This document shows, one piece after another, positions 646 to 49,462 of a stretch of DNA of 64,000 bases. The stretch is from the NCBI GenBank assembly GCA_023262855.1, contig JALQYQ010000017.1, positions 37,485-101,484 of the forward strand, written 5' to 3'. The stretch is from Crocinitomicaceae bacterium (GTDB taxonomy: Bacteria; Bacteroidota; Bacteroidia; Flavobacteriales_D; Crocinitomicaceae). The first letter of the stretch is position 1. Every line of letters starts with the position of its first letter. The notes under the pieces were generated by a model, which was not told the origin of the DNA, did not search any database, and saw only the letters and a list, made by a program, of their open reading frames with translations. Both the position numbers and the translations under genes were made by a program.

Positions 646-814
646 AGGACGGCAAAGATAGTGATAATGAGAGGAATGAAATGTTAAAAAACGTCAACAC
701 GTTGTTTTGAACATGGAGCATAGAACATGGAACATAGATTATGAAGGATAGAGTAAAAAAAAGATAAAGTCCTTTAGCGAAGCGGTCTAGAAGTCTTGAA
801 TTCTTTTGTCCTAA

Positions 815-3590: not shown

Positions 3591-3635
3591 GAATCATGAA
3601 TCATAAATCATGAATCATAAATTATAAATTCCTAA
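3591..3635. repeat. degenerate short tandem repeat (ATCATGAATCATAAATCATGAATCATAAATTATAAATT)
   Basis: Visible iteration of ATCATGA/ATCATAA words, just 3' of ribH. Confidence 0.8.
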
Positions 3636-34936: not shown

Positions 34937-35085
34937 AATCGGGAGTTTTAAGTAAGATTGTTAACTTGCAAAGTTGCTAACTTGTAATGTTGCAAAGTTG
35001 TTATGTTGCAAAGTTGTTTTGTTGCGAAATAACAATGTTGCTAAGGATTCGTAATATTGCGAAGTTGCTAATTAGTTAATTTCCA
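34937..35085. repeat. TTGCAAAGTTG-word repeat block, copy A
   Basis: Shares exact 24-mers GGGAGTTTTAAGTAAGATTGTTAA and AAATAACAATGTTGCTAAGGATTC and 23-mer TTGCAAAGTTGTTATGTTGCAAA with copy C at 35846-35972. Confidence 0.9.
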
Positions 35086-36024: not shown

Positions 36025-36172
36025 AATGAATTCATTTACTCATTTATTCGTTTATCAATTCATTCCTCCATTCCCTCATTCCTATTTTAATCCTTAAATT
36101 GTTCCTTTAATTAATTGCTACATTAAACAATTGCTACATTAGACAATTCCTTCATTTCTATTCCCCTTCATT
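36025..36172. repeat. degenerate CATT-/AATTGCTACATTA-word repeats
   Basis: catttactcatttattcgtttatcaattcattcctccattccctcattcc ... aattgctacattaaacaattgctacattagacaattccttcatt. Confidence 0.7.
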
Positions 36173-40772: not shown

Positions 40773-41894
40773 TCATTTGCTTTCCCTAATCTGCGTAAAC
40801 CCAATCGAAAGAGTGCGTTCATAATTTCGTAACACTTTCACCTCTTTCGCATCAATCAAACACAAAGAAACACCTTGTTTTCCAGCGCGCGCGGTACGTC
40901 CACTGCGATGCGTATAATATTCATCGGATTCTGGTAATTGGTAGTGAACAACATAGGTTAAGCCTTCTACGTCAATTCCACGAGCTGCCAAATCCGTTGC
41001 CACCAAGATCTGTAAACTTTCATTTTTAAATGCACGCATCACTTTGTCGCGTTCTTTTTGCTGTAAATCACCATGAATTGCATCAGCAGCAATGTTCTTC
41101 GCAATTAATTGTTTCGCTAATTTCTGCGCTGTTGCTTTGGTTCTGCAAAAGATCACACCACGATTTTTATGCTCCGATTTCAAGAATTGTTGCAAAATGT
41201 AGAACTTGTCCTTCTCGTCGCAAATAATGTATTTGTGCGTGATTTTGTTATTCACCACATTCTTTGGATTCACAACAATACGGTGCGCCTCCGAAGAAAG
41301 GTGTTTATTGATAATGTCTTTAATTCCAGCGGGAATTGTAGCTGAGAACAACCACTTATTTTTAACGCTGTGCAAGAAAGACAAAATTTCATCCAATTCC
41401 TTTTTGAATCCCATGCTCAACATTTCATCCGCTTCGTCTAACACGATGGTTTTAACCTTGCGCAGATCAACCGCTTTGCGTTGCACCAAATCAATCAAAC
41501 GTCCTGGAGTAGCAACAACAATGTGCGTTGGTCGCTGAAGTCGTGAAATTTGAACATCTATGTTCTCTCCCCCGTATACCGACTCAACAAATACGCGCTC
41601 CGAAAACTTCGTGAATTTGAATAATTGTTTCGCTACTTGCTGACCCAATTCACGTGTTGGACATAAAATCAAGGCCTGAACACTTGCATCATTCGTATCC
41701 ACTTGCTCGAGAATCGGTAAACCATACGCGGCCGTTTTTCCAGTTCCAGTTTGTGCTTGCGCTACAATGTCTGTTTCTTCCTCCAATAAAATCGGAAGTA
41801 CCTTCAACTGTATATCTGTTGGCTGAAGAATATTCAACTCTTTCAATCCTTTGACTAAATCCAGTCGCACGCCTAACTCTTCGAAACTTTTCAC
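40773..41894 (-). CDS. DEAD/DEAH-box RNA helicase
   Basis: Q motif ILQPTDIQ, AQTGTGKTAAYGLP, PTRELGQQ, DEADEMLSMGF, FSATIP, HRSGRTARAG; GTG start with upstream -7 element. Confidence 0.93.
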   Translation of the reverse strand: MKSFEELGVRLDLVKGLKELNILQPTDIQLKVLPILLEEETDIVAQAQTGTGKTAAYGLPILEQVDTNDASVQALILCPTRELGQQVAKQLFKFTKFSERVFVESVYGGENIDVQISRLQRPTHIVVATPGRLIDLVQRKAVDLRKVKTIVLDEADEMLSMGFKKELDEILSFLHSVKNKWLFSATIPAGIKDIINKHLSSEAHRIVVNPKNVVNNKITHKYIICDEKDKFYILQQFLKSEHKNRGVIFCRTKATAQKLAKQLIAKNIAADAIHGDLQQKERDKVMRAFKNESLQILVATDLAARGIDVEGLTYVVHYQLPESDEYYTHRSGRTARAGKQGVSLCLIDAKEVKVLRNYERTLSIGFTQIRESK

Positions 41895-41916
41895 CTTGAT
41901 TTGATTTTATTGAGTA

Positions 41917-41924
41917 CAAAATTA
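41917..41924 (-). promoter_or_regulatory. -7 element TAATTTTG (CAAAATTA on +) for the helicase gene
   Basis: Exact TAnnTTTG 23 nt upstream of GTG 41894. Confidence 0.5.
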
Positions 41925-41933
41925 GTCATTTAA

Positions 41934-42012
41934 ATTCGTGATTTCCTGCCTGTCGGCAGACAGGGTGATTCGTGATTCCTAATTATGAATTATAAATCCT
42001 AAATCACAAATC
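41934..42012. repeat. GTGATTCGTGATT-word repeat block with embedded palindrome CCTGTC-ggca-GACAGG
   Basis: attcgtgatttcctgcctgtcggcagacagggtgattcgtgattcctaattatgaattataaatcctaaatcacaaatcc. Confidence 0.8.
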
Positions 42013-42014
42013 CG

Positions 42015-43901
42015 TTAGGCAAATTCCGAAAGCTCCAACCAACGATCGGTCACCGTATCCAATTTCGACACGACCTCCGATAAACGATTTCCAGCTGACA
42101 TGATTTCTTCATTCGAGATCGATGGATCTGAAAGTTTCGCTGTAAGCGTTTCTTTCTCCTCTTCCAAAGATTCCATGTCTTTTTCCAATTGCTTGAATTC
42201 CTCTTTTTCCTTGAATGACAATTTTTTCTTCTCAGCAGGTTTTTCAGACGAATCAGAAAGTTGTGTCACTTTTACTTTTTCAGCTGGAACGCCATCTTTC
42301 GCCTCTTGCTTTTCCTTTTTGTAATCAGCAGCAGTTTGTTTGCGGTATTCAGTGTAATTTCCAATGATGTCTTTAATCGCACCATTTCCTTCAAACACAA
42401 ATAAATGATCGACCATTTTATCCATGAAATAACGGTCATGCGAAACAACGATTAAACAACCTTCAAACGTGCGTAAGTAATCTTCCAAGACCGACATTAC
42501 GAAGATGTCTAAATCATTTGTTGGCTCATCGAGAATCAAGAAATTTGGATTTGACATTAAAACAGTCATCAATTTCAAACGACGTTTTTCTCCTCCACTC
42601 AATTTGTGAACGAAGTTGTAATGCATGTTGCGATCGAACAAGAATTTCTCCAAGAACTGCGCAGCCGATAATTGACGGCCTTTTTCCAAGGGAATAAATT
42701 CAGCGATATCGCGAATTACATCAATTACTTTTTTGTCTTCATCCACTTTGATCAATTCCTGAGAATAGTAACCAAAAACAACCGTTTCTCCTGTTACCAC
42801 TTTTCCGCGATCAACTTCTTCTTTTCCTTGAATCAAATTCAAGAAAGTAGATTTCCCAGTTCCATTGTTTCCAACAATTCCCAAGCGTTCCTTGCGCTGA
42901 AAATTGTAAGTAAATCCATCCAAGATCACTTTCTCGCCAAAGGATTTTCCGACCTTGTGCAATTCCAAAATCTTCGAACCAAGGCGTTCCATTTTTACTG
43001 GAATATCAATTTCGTCTTCATCAATGCGCTGACTTGCAACTTTCTTGATGTCTTGGAACGAATCAACACGCGCTTTTTGTTTTGTACCACGTGCCTTTGG
43101 TTGACGACGGATCCAATCCAATTCTTTCTTAAAGGTATTTCGCGCTTTATCGATCGTAGAAGCCAATTGTTCTTGACGTTCAGCTTTCTTTTCCAAGTAA
43201 TACGAGAAATTACCTTTGTATTTATAGATCGTTTTATCTTCTAATTCATAAATCGTGTCACACACAACTTCTAAGAAATAGCGGTCGTGCGTCACCATTA
43301 AAATCGTTGATTTCGACTTCGAAAGGTATTCTTCCAACCATTCAATCATGTCTAAATCCAAGTGATTCGTAGGCTCATCCAAGATCAAGAAATCTGCTTC
43401 AGCCACCAATACTTGAGCCAATGCAACACGTTTTTTTTGTCCACCGGAAAGACTTCCAATCAACAAATCAGTATTGTCTAATTTTAGAACCGAAAGAATT
43501 TGATTCACTTTCACTTCCATGTCCCACGCGTTCAACTCTGTCAATTCATCGTAACACGCATGAATCGCTTCTTCGTTTCCTTCGCGTAGTGCTTGGTTGT
43601 ATTTTTTTACAATTTGAAGTTCGGGTAAATCGTGCGAAAACACTGCTTCAAGAATTGTATGTGTATCGTCTAAGTTTTCACTTTGCTGCATGAACGCAAC
43701 ACGAATATCGTTTCTGTACACCACTCGCCCACTGTCGTATGGTTCCAATTCCATTAAACAACGCAGCAAGGTAGTTTTACCATTACCGTTTTTTGCAACA
43801 ATGGCAACTTTTTGACCTAAGTCAATCCCAAAAGTTAAATCAGAAAAAATAACGCGATCACCAAACGACTTGGTGAGATTTTCAACAGAAAGATAATTCA
43901 T
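42015..43901 (-). CDS. ABC-F family ATP-binding cassette protein (Uup/EttA-like)
   Basis: Two NBDs: VAKNGNGKTTLLR...SLSGGQKKRVALAQVL...LDEPTNHLD; VGNNGTGKSTFLN...KLSGGEKRRLKLMTVL...LDEPTNDLD; C-terminal coiled coil. Confidence 0.93.
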   Translation of the reverse strand: MNYLSVENLTKSFGDRVIFSDLTFGIDLGQKVAIVAKNGNGKTTLLRCLMELEPYDSGRVVYRNDIRVAFMQQSENLDDTHTILEAVFSHDLPELQIVKKYNQALREGNEEAIHACYDELTELNAWDMEVKVNQILSVLKLDNTDLLIGSLSGGQKKRVALAQVLVAEADFLILDEPTNHLDLDMIEWLEEYLSKSKSTILMVTHDRYFLEVVCDTIYELEDKTIYKYKGNFSYYLEKKAERQEQLASTIDKARNTFKKELDWIRRQPKARGTKQKARVDSFQDIKKVASQRIDEDEIDIPVKMERLGSKILELHKVGKSFGEKVILDGFTYNFQRKERLGIVGNNGTGKSTFLNLIQGKEEVDRGKVVTGETVVFGYYSQELIKVDEDKKVIDVIRDIAEFIPLEKGRQLSAAQFLEKFLFDRNMHYNFVHKLSGGEKRRLKLMTVLMSNPNFLILDEPTNDLDIFVMSVLEDYLRTFEGCLIVVSHDRYFMDKMVDHLFVFEGNGAIKDIIGNYTEYRKQTAADYKKEKQEAKDGVPAEKVKVTQLSDSSEKPAEKKKLSFKEKEEFKQLEKDMESLEEEKETLTAKLSDPSISNEEIMSAGNRLSEVVSKLDTVTDRWLELSEFA

Positions 43902-43904
43902 GAA

Positions 43905-44369
43905 TTAACGAAGGCGATTAAGTGAGTCGATTAATTTTTTATCCTTACGAATTCCAAAATAACCTAAAACGATAAACGGAAATGCCGCTAAAAATAAGTA
44001 AAGTCCAATTGCCGGTGTTAAACGTGTTGTTTCACAAGCAGTGCAAGAAGCCGTTTCTCCAGCAGACATTGTTATGATCCAAGCTGCAGTTGACAAATTC
44101 AAAATCAAGGCAATCCAAGTCAACATCAATTGGCGTTTTCTATTTTTAAACGAAACGATGGAAACCAATAACGAAAGCGCAATAACAATTATAAGGATAA
44201 AATATCCTTTCGTTTGAACTTCTGGTTTTACTAAGTTTTCATTTCCAAAAGCGGTTACTTGGTAATTCACTTCATTCAAAGAATAGGTAAAGAATGGTAA
44301 ACCTAAAAAAGGTAAACAAACAAGAATCAATGCGATTCCTAAAAATAAAGTCTGTTTGCGTTGCCACAT
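43905..44369 (-). CDS. DUF4293 family membrane protein
   Basis: MWQRKQTLFLGIALILVCLPFL..., four TMs, typical of the Bacteroidetes DUF4293 family. Confidence 0.8.
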   Translation of the reverse strand: MWQRKQTLFLGIALILVCLPFLGLPFFTYSLNEVNYQVTAFGNENLVKPEVQTKGYFILIIVIALSLLVSIVSFKNRKRQLMLTWIALILNLSTAAWIITMSAGETASCTACETTRLTPAIGLYLFLAAFPFIVLGYFGIRKDKKLIDSLNRLR

Positions 44370-44531
44370 AATCGATAAATTTTTCCACGAAATTACGCAT
44401 TTTAAACTGTTTATTGGCTTAGAACTACCGAATAAATGTTCATACCGACTATTCAGTCAATTCTGAGTTATTTCTTTCTCTCGTGTGGAAATTGAACCTA
44501 ACTTGCATCCAAGTGTAAGAAACTCAACTTA

Positions 44532-45449
44532 ATGCGAATTACTATGAAAAATGTAACCATTGAAAATGCTTGTTCTGAGAAATGGAACGAGATGGCGCCA
44601 ACCGATAAAGGTGCGTATTGTCAAGTCTGCGCAACGAATGTGGTTGACTTCACGAATAAATCAAGTTTAGAAATCAAGCAATTGTTATTGGCGAATAGTG
44701 GTAATTCTGTGTGTGGCCGCATTAAAACGCAACAATTGGAACAGTTGAATACCGAATTTGAATTGTGGAATGCAAGTTCAAAACAAACGATTCAACGCGC
44801 GATGTTCTTTTCATTGCTTGTTGTTTTTGGTCTTACATTGTTTAGTTGTGAAACAGAAAAAGAAAAACAAGCCATTCAAGCTTTACAAGCATCCGTATCA
44901 ACAGTTTTAGCTTCAAACACAGCTGATGCGCAACCGCAAATCGAACTTGTGCAGAAAGTCGAAACGATTGAACTTCCGGATTTGATTACTGAGGAAATAA
45001 CTTCAAATTGCAAGTGTGACTATCAGGTGAATCCACCAGAACCAATTAAAGAAGTAATACTTGAAGAATTTCCTGTTGAAGAGCGTATTCATGTTACAAT
45101 GGGTGCAATGGCCTATACAACAAGATTCATTGATTACTTGGAAGAAACAAGTCCAGTTATGGAATACGATGAAAACGGAATCGCACTACCAACAGAATTA
45201 ACAAGTAAAGCTTATCCAAATCCAACAGCTGATTTCACAACCTTGGAATTGGGCTTGCCGGAAAAAGAACGCGCTGAAATAGCCGTTTATTCGATGAATG
45301 GTCAACACCTTCAAACGGTATATGATGGAAAAATTGAACGAGGAACAAGTACTTACTCAATTGATTTAAGCGCTTACGAACCGGGCATGTATTTGATCAC
45401 GATTCGTTCGAAAAAGTTTAATGAGACGGTGAGGGTTTCTAAAATGTAA
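44532..45449 (+). CDS. protein with N-terminal Cys-rich cytoplasmic-type domain, one TM/lipobox-like segment and C-terminal T9SS-like domain
   Basis: MKNVTIENACSEKWNEMAPTDKGAYCQVCATNVVDFTNKSSLEIKQLLLANSGNSVCGRI; FFSLLVVFGLTLFSCETEK; SKAYPNPTADFTTLELGLPEKERAEIAVYSMNGQHLQTVYDG...LSAYEPGMYLITIRSKKFNETVRVSKM. Confidence 0.8.
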   Translation: MRITMKNVTIENACSEKWNEMAPTDKGAYCQVCATNVVDFTNKSSLEIKQLLLANSGNSVCGRIKTQQLEQLNTEFELWNASSKQTIQRAMFFSLLVVFGLTLFSCETEKEKQAIQALQASVSTVLASNTADAQPQIELVQKVETIELPDLITEEITSNCKCDYQVNPPEPIKEVILEEFPVEERIHVTMGAMAYTTRFIDYLEETSPVMEYDENGIALPTELTSKAYPNPTADFTTLELGLPEKERAEIAVYSMNGQHLQTVYDGKIERGTSTYSIDLSAYEPGMYLITIRSKKFNETVRVSKM

Positions 45450-45464
45450 TCCGCCACGGCGGAT
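45449..45464. repeat. palindrome ATCCGCC-AC-GGCGGAT overlapping a stop codon
   Basis: Perfect 7-bp arms; GC-rich in AT-rich surroundings. Confidence 0.8.
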
Positions 45465-45582
45465 AGAATCTTGATGTTAGATATAGAATTTAGAAGGATT
45501 TCCGTGCACACGTTCTAGATTCTATCATCTAGCTCTAGCTCTAATTCTAAATTCTAACTCTATCTTCTAGCTCTATACTCCA
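45465..45582. repeat. degenerate TCTAGCTCTA/ATAGAAT word repeats running into the aroC 3' end
   Basis: ttctagattctatcatctagctctagctctaattctaaattctaactctatcttctagctctatactcc. Confidence 0.8.
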
Positions 45583-46621
45583 AATAAAAATCTAGTAAAG
45601 TCAACGCTGCCATTGCTTCTACAATTGGAACAGCGCGTGGAACAACGCAGGCATCGTGACGTCCTTTACCTTCCAATTCTACTTTTTCACCCGCTTGGTT
45701 GATGGAAATTTGCGCTTGCATGAGTGTTGCAACAGGTTTGAACGCAACTCTGAATTCGATTGGCATTCCGTTGGAAATTCCTCCTTGAATGCCACCACTG
45801 TGATTCGTTTGTGTGCTCCCATCTTCGTTGAAGAGATCATTGTGTTGTGAACCACGCATTTCAACCGATGAAAAACCACTTCCAAATTCAACGCCTTTAA
45901 CAGCATTGATCGATAACATTGCTTTTCCAAGATCCGCATGCAGTTTATCGAAAACAGGCTCTCCAAGTCCAACCGGAACATTGACAATCATGCAACGAAC
46001 GCATCCGCCAATTGTATCGCCATCCTTGCGAACTTCACGTATCAATTCTTCCATACGTTCAGCAGTTTTCGCATCTGGACAACGCACAGGATTGGATTCA
46101 ATCGCATCGTGCATGAAGAACGAGGTATCCCTTAAACGTACAGAACCAACTTGATCAACATAGGTTGAAAATTCGATTCCTAAGCTTTCTAAATAGTGTT
46201 TTGCGATTGCACCTGCAACAACGCGTGAAGCAGTTTCGCGTGCACTCGATCTTCCTCCTCCACGGTAATCGCGTGTCCCGTATTTCTTCTCATACGTGTA
46301 ATCAGCGTGTGAAGGACGAAACACATCTTTCAAGTGATCGTAATCCGCACTTTTTTGCGCTTCGTTTGGAATGCTAAATGCGATTGGCGCACCTGTTGTC
46401 TTTCCTTCAAAAATGCCAGATAAAAATTGAACAGTGTCGCTTTCCTTGCGTTGCGTAACAATTGCCGATTGTCCTGGCTTTCTACGATCCAATTCGTATT
46501 GAACCTTTTCTAGATCGATTGGAAAATTCGCTGGAAATCCATCAATAATTCCACCAATGGCCACACCGTGTGATTCACCAAAAGTCGTTAAACGCACTAA
46601 TTTTCCGAAAGAAGAACTCAT
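45560..46621 (-). CDS. aroC: chorismate synthase
   Basis: [81 protein letters not shown]. Confidence 0.96.
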
Positions 46622-46625
46622 ACAA

Positions 46626-46633
46626 CAAATATA
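46626..46633 (-). promoter_or_regulatory. -7 element TATATTTG (CAAATATA on +) immediately before the aroC ATG
   Basis: Exact TAnnTTTG; G lies 5 nt before the A of ATG 46621. Confidence 0.5.
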
Positions 46634-46693
46634 AGCTAGAAATTTGATTTCAGTGAAAAAGGCACGATTTAATGAATGAATTTGCAGCGTTCG

Positions 46694-47026
46694 TTATACG
46701 CGAGATACAATTCCATTGATCAATTGAATTCCACCAAACAAGATAGCTCCCCAGAAAATATATCCAACATCGGCAAGGGTTAGAACAGTTCCTCCAATAC
46801 ACCAAAGCGAACCGAAAATAATGTCTTTCGTAGCTTTTTTCTTTTTAGCTTGCTGAACGAGATCAAGTGCAGAATTGGTAATTTCAGCTGCGACACCTTC
46901 CTCGGCTCCCAGTTGAATTAATCCACGTTTTACTTGGCTTGGTAATTTTTCTTCTTTGACAATCATGCGAATTGCTTCCTCATGATAGTAGTCGATTTCA
47001 TTTTGAATAAGCGGTTTCTTCTCCAT
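46694..47026 (-). CDS. small membrane protein, hypothetical
   Basis: 110 aa; soluble N-terminus, two C-terminal TMs IIFGSLWCIGGTVLTLADVGYIFWGAILFGGIQLING. Confidence 0.65.
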   Translation of the reverse strand: MEKKPLIQNEIDYYHEEAIRMIVKEEKLPSQVKRGLIQLGAEEGVAAEITNSALDLVQQAKKKKATKDIIFGSLWCIGGTVLTLADVGYIFWGAILFGGIQLINGIVSRV

Positions 47027-47185
47027 AGTTAAGTTACATAGTCGTCACTTCGTCGAAGAAATAAGGAGAGAAACACGACGAGTTGAAATTTGGTTCGCAC
47101 CGAGTCAAAGATACTTCTTTGCTAAAATTTCAGCTTTATTTTAACATTTCTAAATTTAGGTTATTCTTGGAATTCTAAGCGCTTG

Positions 47186-47262
47186 AATTTGTGATTCGTG
47201 ATTTGTGATTCGTGATTCGTGATTCGTGATTTATAATTTGTGATTAAGATTAAGATTAAACT
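47186..47262. repeat. GTGATTCGTGATT-word repeat block
   Basis: tttgtgattcgtgatttgtgattcgtgattcgtgattcgtgatttataatttgtgattaagattaagattaaa. Confidence 0.9.
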
Positions 47263-47271
47263 ATTGATACA

Positions 47272-47658
47272 TTAACGCACTTTTTTAAAATGAATTTCTT
47301 TGCCTTTGCGTTCACTTAAAATCATCTTGGTTTCGGTTATTTTAACAATTTGCATTTCCTCTTCAGAATCACTTCGTTCTTGAATGAATAAAGTCATTGA
47401 TTCTTCATCAACATCCCACTTGCCGATAAATCGTGCATTTTCAACATCACCTCCGCGAACTGAAAACATGCGTCCATCGGATTCAAATAGAATATACTCT
47501 TGACGTTTATTTATTTTGTTTTTCGATTTGCCAGGTGCTTTGGTCAGGACCCATTTCCCAACGATTTTTTCACGCACAGTTGGCGCAGTTAAACTCATGA
47601 TAAAGAAAGAAAACAAAAAGACAAGACTTAGTTGAGCGATTTTCATTGATGATTTCAT
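47272..47658 (-). CDS. hypothetical secreted lipocalin-like protein
   Basis: Signal-like N-terminus; EKIVGKWVLTKAPGKSKNKINKRQEYILFESDGRMFSVRGGDVENARFIGKWDVDEESMTLFI. Confidence 0.7.
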   Translation of the reverse strand: MKSSMKIAQLSLVFLFSFFIMSLTAPTVREKIVGKWVLTKAPGKSKNKINKRQEYILFESDGRMFSVRGGDVENARFIGKWDVDEESMTLFIQERSDSEEEMQIVKITETKMILSERKGKEIHFKKVR

Positions 47659-47677
47659 GGTAAGCGATTTTATTTTC

Positions 47678-47685
47678 CAAATATA
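47678..47685 (-). promoter_or_regulatory. -7 element TATATTTG (CAAATATA on +)
   Basis: Exact TAnnTTTG 20 nt upstream of ATG 47658. Confidence 0.5.
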
Positions 47686-47805
47686 ATGGTTTCATATCAA
47701 ACATTTAATAGTTGAGAAAGTCTTCAAAAATTCTATGCTCTATAATCAATGCTCGATGCTCTCTTTTTTCTTGTCTACTTTTAACTAGTTACTTATATTT
47801 AAAGA

Positions 47806-48405
47806 ATGATTGAGCAACAAGCAGAAGAATTTTGGCAATGGTTTGTGAAAAACGAAGCACTAATTCAAGGATGTATTACGAATCCTGAAAGTGAATCGCG
47901 CGAGTATGTCATTGAGCATTTGAACAATTATATTTTAGCGTTTGGTCCGCTGAAATGGGATTTAGGCTTGAACGATGCCGACGAATGGTTCTTTGTAATT
48001 TCACCCAATTGCGATGAACAATTGTTAGAAATAACAAGTGAATTGATTGAGCTTGCTCCTACTTTTCTGAATTGGCAATTTCACGACAGCGTGCCCGCAA
48101 AAGATTGGAACCGTCAATTTTCGGTTTACGACCACGAAATGGAAGTTTTAACTGTTGACGCTTCTGCTTGGCACTACATTGCGTTTACCGCTGGAGAAAA
48201 GGTGGAAGTTATTCTTGAAGCGCCAAATCTCAATTTCACAAATGAAGAGACTACCGCAATTATTGGTAACTTGTTTTTGTTAAATGAAATTGGGGAACGC
48301 TTATTGATTGAGCGCATCGCCAAGTATAGTTTGGTGAGTGAACTGGATGATGAAGATCAGGAATATAAATATCCGATTGGGGATTTGAGGGAACACGTGC
48401 AATGA
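47806..48405 (+). CDS. hypothetical protein
   Basis: 199 aa, no signal peptide; EEFWQWFVKNEALIQGCITNPESESREYVIEHLNNYILAFGPLKWDLGL. Confidence 0.65.
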   Translation: MIEQQAEEFWQWFVKNEALIQGCITNPESESREYVIEHLNNYILAFGPLKWDLGLNDADEWFFVISPNCDEQLLEITSELIELAPTFLNWQFHDSVPAKDWNRQFSVYDHEMEVLTVDASAWHYIAFTAGEKVEVILEAPNLNFTNEETTAIIGNLFLLNEIGERLLIERIAKYSLVSELDDEDQEYKYPIGDLREHVQ

Positions 48406-48461
48406 TTTGTGATTTGTGATTACCTGCGGTGCTGCCTTCGGCGGTTGTGATTCGTGATTAA
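48403..48461. repeat. GTGATTTGTGATT-word repeat with GC-rich insert CCTGCGGTGCTGCCTTCGGCGGT
   Basis: tgatttgtgatttgtgattacctgcggtgctgccttcggcggttgtgattcgtgatta, starting at the upstream stop codon. Confidence 0.8.
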
Positions 48462-48476
48462 AAAAAAAATTAGAAG

Positions 48477-49040
48477 ATGAGATTACTGCTTACAATATGT
48501 TTAATGGGATTTGGAGCAATTGCTTTTGGACAAGCGACTTCTTCGAATGACGATATGAAAAATTGGCTCATGCAGAATTTCAATTTGCAAGTTCCCGACA
48601 CGATGGTTTTTGAAACACCGATTGACTCTAAGAATTTTCAGCAAGAGCTACCTTCTGTTGTGCGTGAAGAGTTGAAAAAAGATGAATGGCAAGGTGAATT
48701 TAAGGTTGTCGAAATTGAATCGGTTGAAGATGGGCTAACAATCATTTTAGACGATGAATATTCCTTTCGAATGATTCTAATGGAGAACTTTTTTCTCATT
48801 TCCATGCATGGAATTATTGGAGATTACAAACAGACGATATTGTATGATTTTGAAACAAAGGATATGTACACTTTAGCCAGTTATTATGCCTTGCGACCAA
48901 TTGGAAGAAACGAAATTTCTGTTTCCGTTGATTATTACGATAGCCGTGATTTCGAAGACCCAGATTACGAAGGCCATATTTTTGAACGCGGCATCGTTGA
49001 CTTAAAAACGGGCATTTACACCTTATTGGAAAAAGAGTAA
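48477..49040 (+). CDS. hypothetical secreted protein
   Basis: Signal peptide MRLLLTICLMGFGAIAFGQ. Confidence 0.65.
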   Translation: MRLLLTICLMGFGAIAFGQATSSNDDMKNWLMQNFNLQVPDTMVFETPIDSKNFQQELPSVVREELKKDEWQGEFKVVEIESVEDGLTIILDDEYSFRMILMENFFLISMHGIIGDYKQTILYDFETKDMYTLASYYALRPIGRNEISVSVDYYDSRDFEDPDYEGHIFERGIVDLKTGIYTLLEKE

Positions 49041-49078
49041 CACAATAACATGCGTATTTTCTCAGGCAATTAATTCGA

Positions 49079-49462
49079 TTACGGGTTTAAAAAACGCTTC
49101 GGTTTGGTACAAACATCGCATTCAAAACCCAAATGCTTTCCAACGTTTACGGCCTTCTTTCTTTTTTTGAAATAGACGTACGCTAAATCCAAGGGAATTC
49201 GAACCTCGTTACCAAGAGGATCAACTCCCACAACAAAGACTTCAAAATACTCACCACCAGACGTTGCCTCAAAGCCAATTTCAACTACTTGAATGATTTG
49301 CGCATCGTGATTATCACAACAACCACAAAACAACAACAACGTTTCTTGTGTACGCAAAAATTCTGCTGCCTTGCGTGCTTGAGCTTCAGTAATCCATGCC
49401 AATTGATCTGCTTGTGCAAAACCAACAATAAAGAGGAAAATGCTTAGAATTAAAGATTTCAT
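49079..49462 (-). CDS. hypothetical secreted protein
   Basis: Signal peptide MKSLILSIFLFIVGFAQA; LLLFCGCCDNHDAQIIQVVEIGFE. Confidence 0.65.
   Translation of the reverse strand: MKSLILSIFLFIVGFAQADQLAWITEAQARKAAEFLRTQETLLLFCGCCDNHDAQIIQVVEIGFEATSGGEYFEVFVVGVDPLGNEVRIPLDLAYVYFKKRKKAVNVGKHLGFECDVCTKPKRFLNP

Follow-up and report, generated by a model that had tools for sequence, protein, structure and literature searches.

Heptamer Arrays in the Window

Within the 64,000-nucleotide stretch of Crocinitomicaceae DNA analyzed here (the window), the region at 47186-47262, close to a lipocalin-like gene, is one of four sites, together with 41934-42012, 48403-48461 and 3591-3635, at which an initial annotation had described a family of slightly varied words; the repeated-word sequence is seen at all four (Table 1). 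At each of them the underlying unit is a tandem heptamer, RTRATTY, present on either strand, and its copies are non-identical as described, with variants such as GTGATTC, GTGATTT, ATGATTC and GTAATTC. The sequence at 3591-3635, previously regarded as a related vocabulary, is indeed the same unit on the other strand (AATCATR). The period, which had been taken to vary, is by contrast fixed at 7 bp; the arrays look irregular and drifting because one heptamer occurs in transition variants (R/Y) and because embedded GC-rich hairpins and reversed arms interrupt them. Further vocabulary of like style, made of degenerate TCTAAC/TTCTAGC words, is found at 45513-45580 of the window, at the 3' end of a minus-strand gene (45560-46621).

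Table 1. Repeat and hairpin features of the window.
Feature	Position	Strand	Context
Array of another heptamer word, GAACATR/GAGCATA	704-745	-	
AATCATR heptamer array (RTRATTY when read on the - strand)	3592-3629	-	38 bp 3' of ribH (DMRL synthase), 20 bp ahead of a phosphomannomutase-like gene
Left remnant of RTRATTY words	41935-41944	+	Before palindrome C
Palindrome C, CCTGCCTGTCGGCAGACAGG, 20 bp	41945-41964	+	Exactly between two words; missing at the orthologous place in G002
GTGATTCGTGATT words	41965-41977	+	After palindrome C; = C13:79449-79461
Inverted arm of related heptamers (AATTATGAATTATAAATCCTAAATCACAAATCC)	41980-42011	-	
Heptamer array (ATTYGTG)n, ~8 units of RTRATTY	47187-47245	+	3' of lipocalin-like gene 47272-47658 (-)
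GATTAA x3	47242-47259		Directly after the 47187-47245 array
RTRATTY words	48402-48422	+	First word contains the TGA stop of gene 47806-48405
Hairpin B, CCTGCGGTGCTGCCTTCGGCGGTT, 24 bp	48423-48446	+	Flanked by words on both sides
GTGATTCGTGATT words	48447-48459	+	3' of hairpin B

Size and Spread of the Family

In the whole genome (3.28 Mb in 73 contigs), GTGATTYGTGATT has 84 exact matches (52 and 32 on the two strands), clustered at about 40 places, and the reversed control of the same string has none on either strand in the same search. Across 553 kb of this genome, in stretches picked around word hits so that word frequencies are ascertained, period 7 accounts for 36 arrays (34 intergenic), compared with 0-4 arrays for each of the periods 3-6 and 8-12. 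The same predominance is seen in the related genomes G002 (30 period-7 arrays versus 0-5 for each of the periods 4-6 and 8-12) and G021 (13 versus 0-1 for each of the same periods), the stretches in both cases having been picked by orthology to the array sites of the first genome. Among 25 congeners, matches to GTGATTYGTGATT number 65 in G002, 16 in G021, 7 in G005 and 0-4 in the remaining ones. Other heptamer words, such as GAACATR/GAGCATA, CTCGRYT, TAGTCAC and GATGAGT, are arrayed in these genomes in like style, as are 8-bp words, for example TTTGAACC and ATTTGAAT. Octamer (8/16-bp) arrays of TTGYWATG, ATTTGAAT and AAATCTTC stand alongside heptamers at 34957-35072 and 36103-36157 of the window and at two places of another locus (L047:7978-8018 and L047:12455-12513).

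Two contigs stop within long (AATTATG)n arrays (L056:9123-9295 at the end of C41 and L064:9930-10079 at the end of C62); arrays thus probably break the assembly, and the family would therefore be undercounted. The composite GTGATTAAGTAATA(G/A)AATTATG, with a long (AATTATG)n array after it, is common to the first of these loci and an unlinked one (L046:4496-4741), possibly as a copied array. Heterogeneous four-word strings shared by unlinked loci number 11 versus 5.3 in shuffles (p 0.018), an excess that local clumping of words could cause. When the array flanks were compared after masking, the only sequence in common was that of the hairpins and, at two loci, of a short composite, and a larger mobile unit around the arrays was rejected on these grounds.

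As regards bacteria at large, the three-unit string GTGATTYGTGATTYGTGATT is present in many phyla (scan of 85,000 species) and in 37 viral contigs in a scan run without a control word. Across 396 evenly sampled Bacteroidota genomes, however, just 4 others have the word, versus 8 with the reversed control; a universal, pan-bacterial homologous word is thus not supported, and the heptamer is therefore a lineage-specific choice.

Placement Relative to Genes

With gene calls taken as long ORFs from a simple script rather than from a trained gene finder, 42 sites have two flanking genes called, 34 of them in co-directional, 6 in convergent and 2 in divergent gaps, the last being depleted relative to the approximately 9 expected from intergenic length. 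That the arrays lie just 3' of genes, as first noticed at the four sites, holds when positions are tabulated, and the placement is non-random: 28 of the 34 co-directional sites have the upstream stop closer by than the start of the downstream gene (p=2e-4), the median distances being 13 bp past the stop and 70 bp before the start (n=34). The strand of the word relative to the genes is close to 1:1 (18 with, 16 against, over the same sites); the 3' bias is thus genuine and independent of strand. It extends to period-7 arrays of any word, with 27/38 in this genome and 18/24 in G002.

Where two oppositely oriented arms are no more than about 140 bp apart, the order GATT...AATC prevails over the reverse (31 versus 6) in this genus and in unrelated phyla, a count that covers this genome, G002 and loci L071-L150, the loci from other phyla having been selected for the word. 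This order is also seen at Xanthomonadaceae and Gemmatimonadaceae loci, with ~45-57 nt between the arms.

Turnover between Related Species

Orthologous gaps were located in G002 and G021 by flanking proteins and blastn; the flanking gene ends have a mean nucleotide identity of ~86% for G002 and 76% for G021. Of the 29 orthologous G002 gaps (<600 bp), 27 contain an array of period 7 or two or more words, whereas array occupancy over all gaps is only 15-20%; by period 7 alone the count is 26/29, versus 0.6 in base-shuffled gaps. In G021, 12 of 18 orthologous gaps hold some array or word pair; in the G021 ortholog of one array gap (L061:1907), a ~60-bp direct repeat (GGTGCAATTCGACC...AAACATGCCATAAATTAG) is found at L231:4200-4410 instead of a heptamer array.

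Although the arrays are kept, their content is not. The expansion and contraction of copies between relatives, envisaged from the outset, is evident between species: only 4 of the 29 G002 gaps have as many units as their counterparts, against 25 that differ, and lengths differ in 7-bp steps, as at site 11, where the two genomes are separated by exactly two inserted units. The word itself may be exchanged, from AATCATG to a TAGTCAC-type word at site 5 and from AAATCAC to CTAATCA at site 17, and words are likewise replaced at the orthologous positions of sites 6 and 37. Orthologous arrays resemble each other in word order no more than shuffled ones do (1/31 versus 0.8). At the locus of 47186-47262, G002 has an array with another unit count, plus hairpin A (described below), which the window lacks at this place.

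Hairpins inside the Arrays

Hairpin A (CCTGCCTGTCGTAGCCTCCAGCGCAGACAGG, 31 bp, folding at -11 kcal/mol) has 13 copies in this genome and 6 in G002; none was found in 77 other relatives searched. All copies examined adjoin or sit inside a word array, made of RTRATTY in 13 cases, GAACATR/GAGCATA in 3 and GAGNCGA-type words in 3, and the orientation of the hairpin relative to the word is constant within each word class. It mostly sits exactly between two words: upon its removal in silico, 11 of 19 joined flanks match period 7 at 70% or more of the junction positions, versus 3% for random intergenic sequence, in a count that scores one C73 copy twice and leaves its neighbor unscored. Hairpin B has 5 genomic copies (with at most 3 mismatches), all between GTGATT words, and palindrome C, a related 20-bp element, lies exactly between 7-bp words in the window and between 8-bp words elsewhere. 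At least one of the octamer arrays hosts hairpin C (L047:7978 / L042). At orthologous gaps, one species has hairpin A, hairpin C or a D-type hairpin (TCCGCCGCGGCGGA) that the other lacks; these hairpins therefore behave as small palindromes, presumably mobile or precisely excised, that use the arrays as sites.

In terms of known elements, hairpin A resembles REP sequences as a short multi-copy intergenic palindrome within their size range of 20-40 bp, present or absent between relatives. A tag, GTAG or CGTC, further marks one end of REP palindromes (PMC3733652); hairpin A has no such tag at its end, GTAG being found inside the loop, and, unlike REP/RAYT systems, has no cognate RAYT gene flanked by its own palindrome. 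No Y1 transposase (PF01797) was found in this genome, which is 94.7% complete. G002 has a single RAYT-like gene, encoding a Y1 transposase of 154 aa (C48:11658-12002, within L275, G002:C48:9000-12275), which has inverted pairs of CAACCCTGAAGGGGTTGAA on either side and is thus probably, together with these pairs, a REP/RAYT unit of this genus. A CAACCCTGAAGGGGTTGAA palindrome also occurs in the first genome near hairpin A (L194). A RAYT origin of hairpin A was rejected: the G002 Y1 gene lies ~1.1 kb from one copy but is flanked by a different palindrome. The association of hairpins with arrays is the new part of these observations and the one most worth following.

Comparison with Known Heptamer Repeats

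The STRR sequences of heterocystous cyanobacteria are dispersed, degenerate heptanucleotide tandem repeats. The arrays described here belong to this known kind, namely intergenic heptanucleotide repeats of the STRR/long-SSR type, with a degenerate tandem 7-bp unit and many dispersed, mostly intergenic copies; they resemble the cyanobacterial STRR in type and differ from it in word and phylum. The closest parallels are the GGGAATC heptamers of Xanthomonas, which are intergenic, near the end of the upstream ORF, and share 83% of their positions with differing lengths (Rehm et al. 2015, PMC4692102), and the GGGGA(C/T)T heptamers of Nostoc (PMC4692102). With both, the arrays share a variant 7-bp unit in dozens of dispersed intergenic arrays, proximity to the end of the upstream ORF, scarcity between divergent genes, paired inverted arrays, and positions, though not lengths, common to relatives; convergent array pairs are described in Xanthomonas (Rehm et al. 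2015, PMC4692102). They differ in that the unit GTGATTY has no runs of three or more G, so that no G-quadruplex is expected, and in the presence of a second class of element, the hairpin insertions, within the arrays.

The TAACTGA repeats of Beggiatoaceae, cyanobacteria and five Bacteroidetes are likewise intergenic direct repeats of a heptamer, with mixed heptamers at one locus, a patchy taxonomic spread that includes Bacteroidetes, and 7-nt indels between strains (MacGregor 2015, PMC4679880). In BOGUAY, however, TAACTGA stands just upstream of start codons and in forward orientation, whereas the arrays described here follow stops (28/34) in either orientation (strand ~1:1).

Origin and Maintenance of the Arrays

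The arrays are probably dispersed heptanucleotide repeats maintained by slippage in intergenic DNA, with a neutral 3' bias and hairpin insertions. Arrays would grow and shrink by whole 7-bp units, with replication slippage as the most likely cause, and the units would drift mainly by transitions (302:53, a ratio that is inflated, as the seed pattern itself permits transitions, and is of qualitative use only), so that a locus keeps its array while the copy number, and sometimes the word, change quickly. The bias towards gene 3' ends is best explained by purifying selection elsewhere and not by a 3'-end function: arrays would be found just past stops because constraint on the DNA is weakest there, selection presumably protecting coding DNA as well as promoters and ribosome-binding sites. 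Short GC-rich hairpins would insert precisely between words, the arrays thus serving as insertion sites for a small and apparently mobile palindrome. Slippage is a good account of local turnover and a poor account of the presence of a single word at about 40 unlinked loci of a genome most of whose congeners have it rarely; nor does neutral slippage predict the prevailing GATT...AATC order of the arms.

The initial annotation had proposed an active class of functional 3'-end elements, a role that could be that of terminators, mRNA-stabilizing stem-loops or 3'-processing sites and that the evidence makes very unlikely. Stop proximity and the retention of array positions in the relative would suit such a role, but the strand relative to the gene is indifferent, and the strong fold of some sites with inverted arms or hairpins, such as 41934-42012 (two hairpins, z -4.94), is not shared by the array at 47186-47262, which on either strand is less stably folded than its shuffled versions (z +1.13 and +1.78). 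With Rfam 15 covariance models, no match at E<=1 was obtained within 41600-49200, and an RNA function of the 47186-47262 array was rejected on the strength of these two results. No intrinsic terminator (GC-rich stem and U-tract) is found at 47186-47262, and the hairpin at 48430-48443, although flagged as a terminator, is followed by GTTGTGATTC, which is not a clear U-tract. Separate terminators of the rho-independent type adjoin several arrays, sites 17 and 36 being cases in which the terminator, unlike the array, is conserved in G002; moreover, hairpins present in one relative are missing at the same gap in the other. Binding sites for a sequence-specific protein, on DNA or RNA, with selection keeping the word coherent across loci, are a similarly improbable reading, of the sort suggested for the TAACTGA repeats in Beggiatoaceae. 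Such selection might account for the dominance of one word family in G000 and G002 and for positions retained between species, but hardly for the replacement of words at orthologous positions (sites 5, 6, 17 and 37), for the many other words that make like arrays in one genome, or for a distribution with neither promoter or start-codon bias nor strand preference.

It is also rather unlikely, if somewhat less so, that the arrays were dispersed by active copying, transposition-like or templated, that acts on the words and of which the hairpins are part. The presence of one word at ~40 loci, expanded in two sister species, points in this direction, as do the constant company of hairpin A with arrays of three different words, in fixed orientation and mostly exactly between words, and the composite of GTGATTAAGTAATA and (AATTATG)n common to two loci; array flanks, however, have no common sequence besides the hairpins, the sharing of word strings is only marginally above shuffles, and neither a Y1 transposase in this genome nor any other enzyme or RNA template could be named as the agent. 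A speculative combination, given somewhat more weight though still doubtful, would make arrays and hairpins one system, in which a putative enzyme recognizes arrays of 7- or 8-bp period largely regardless of the word, places a hairpin of 20-31 bp precisely at the boundary of two units and in fixed orientation, and may also copy words to new loci, resulting in concerted, genome-specific vocabularies.

Slippage-maintained arrays remain the preferred reading, one that offers a neutral explanation of the striking 3'-end bias. The class of gene-end heptamer repeats is extended to this genus of Flavobacteriales, in which a pair of close relatives allows the evolution of arrays, hairpins and terminators to be compared site by site. 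If the link between hairpins and arrays holds, how a single heptamer spreads to many places in one bacterial genome would become a testable question.
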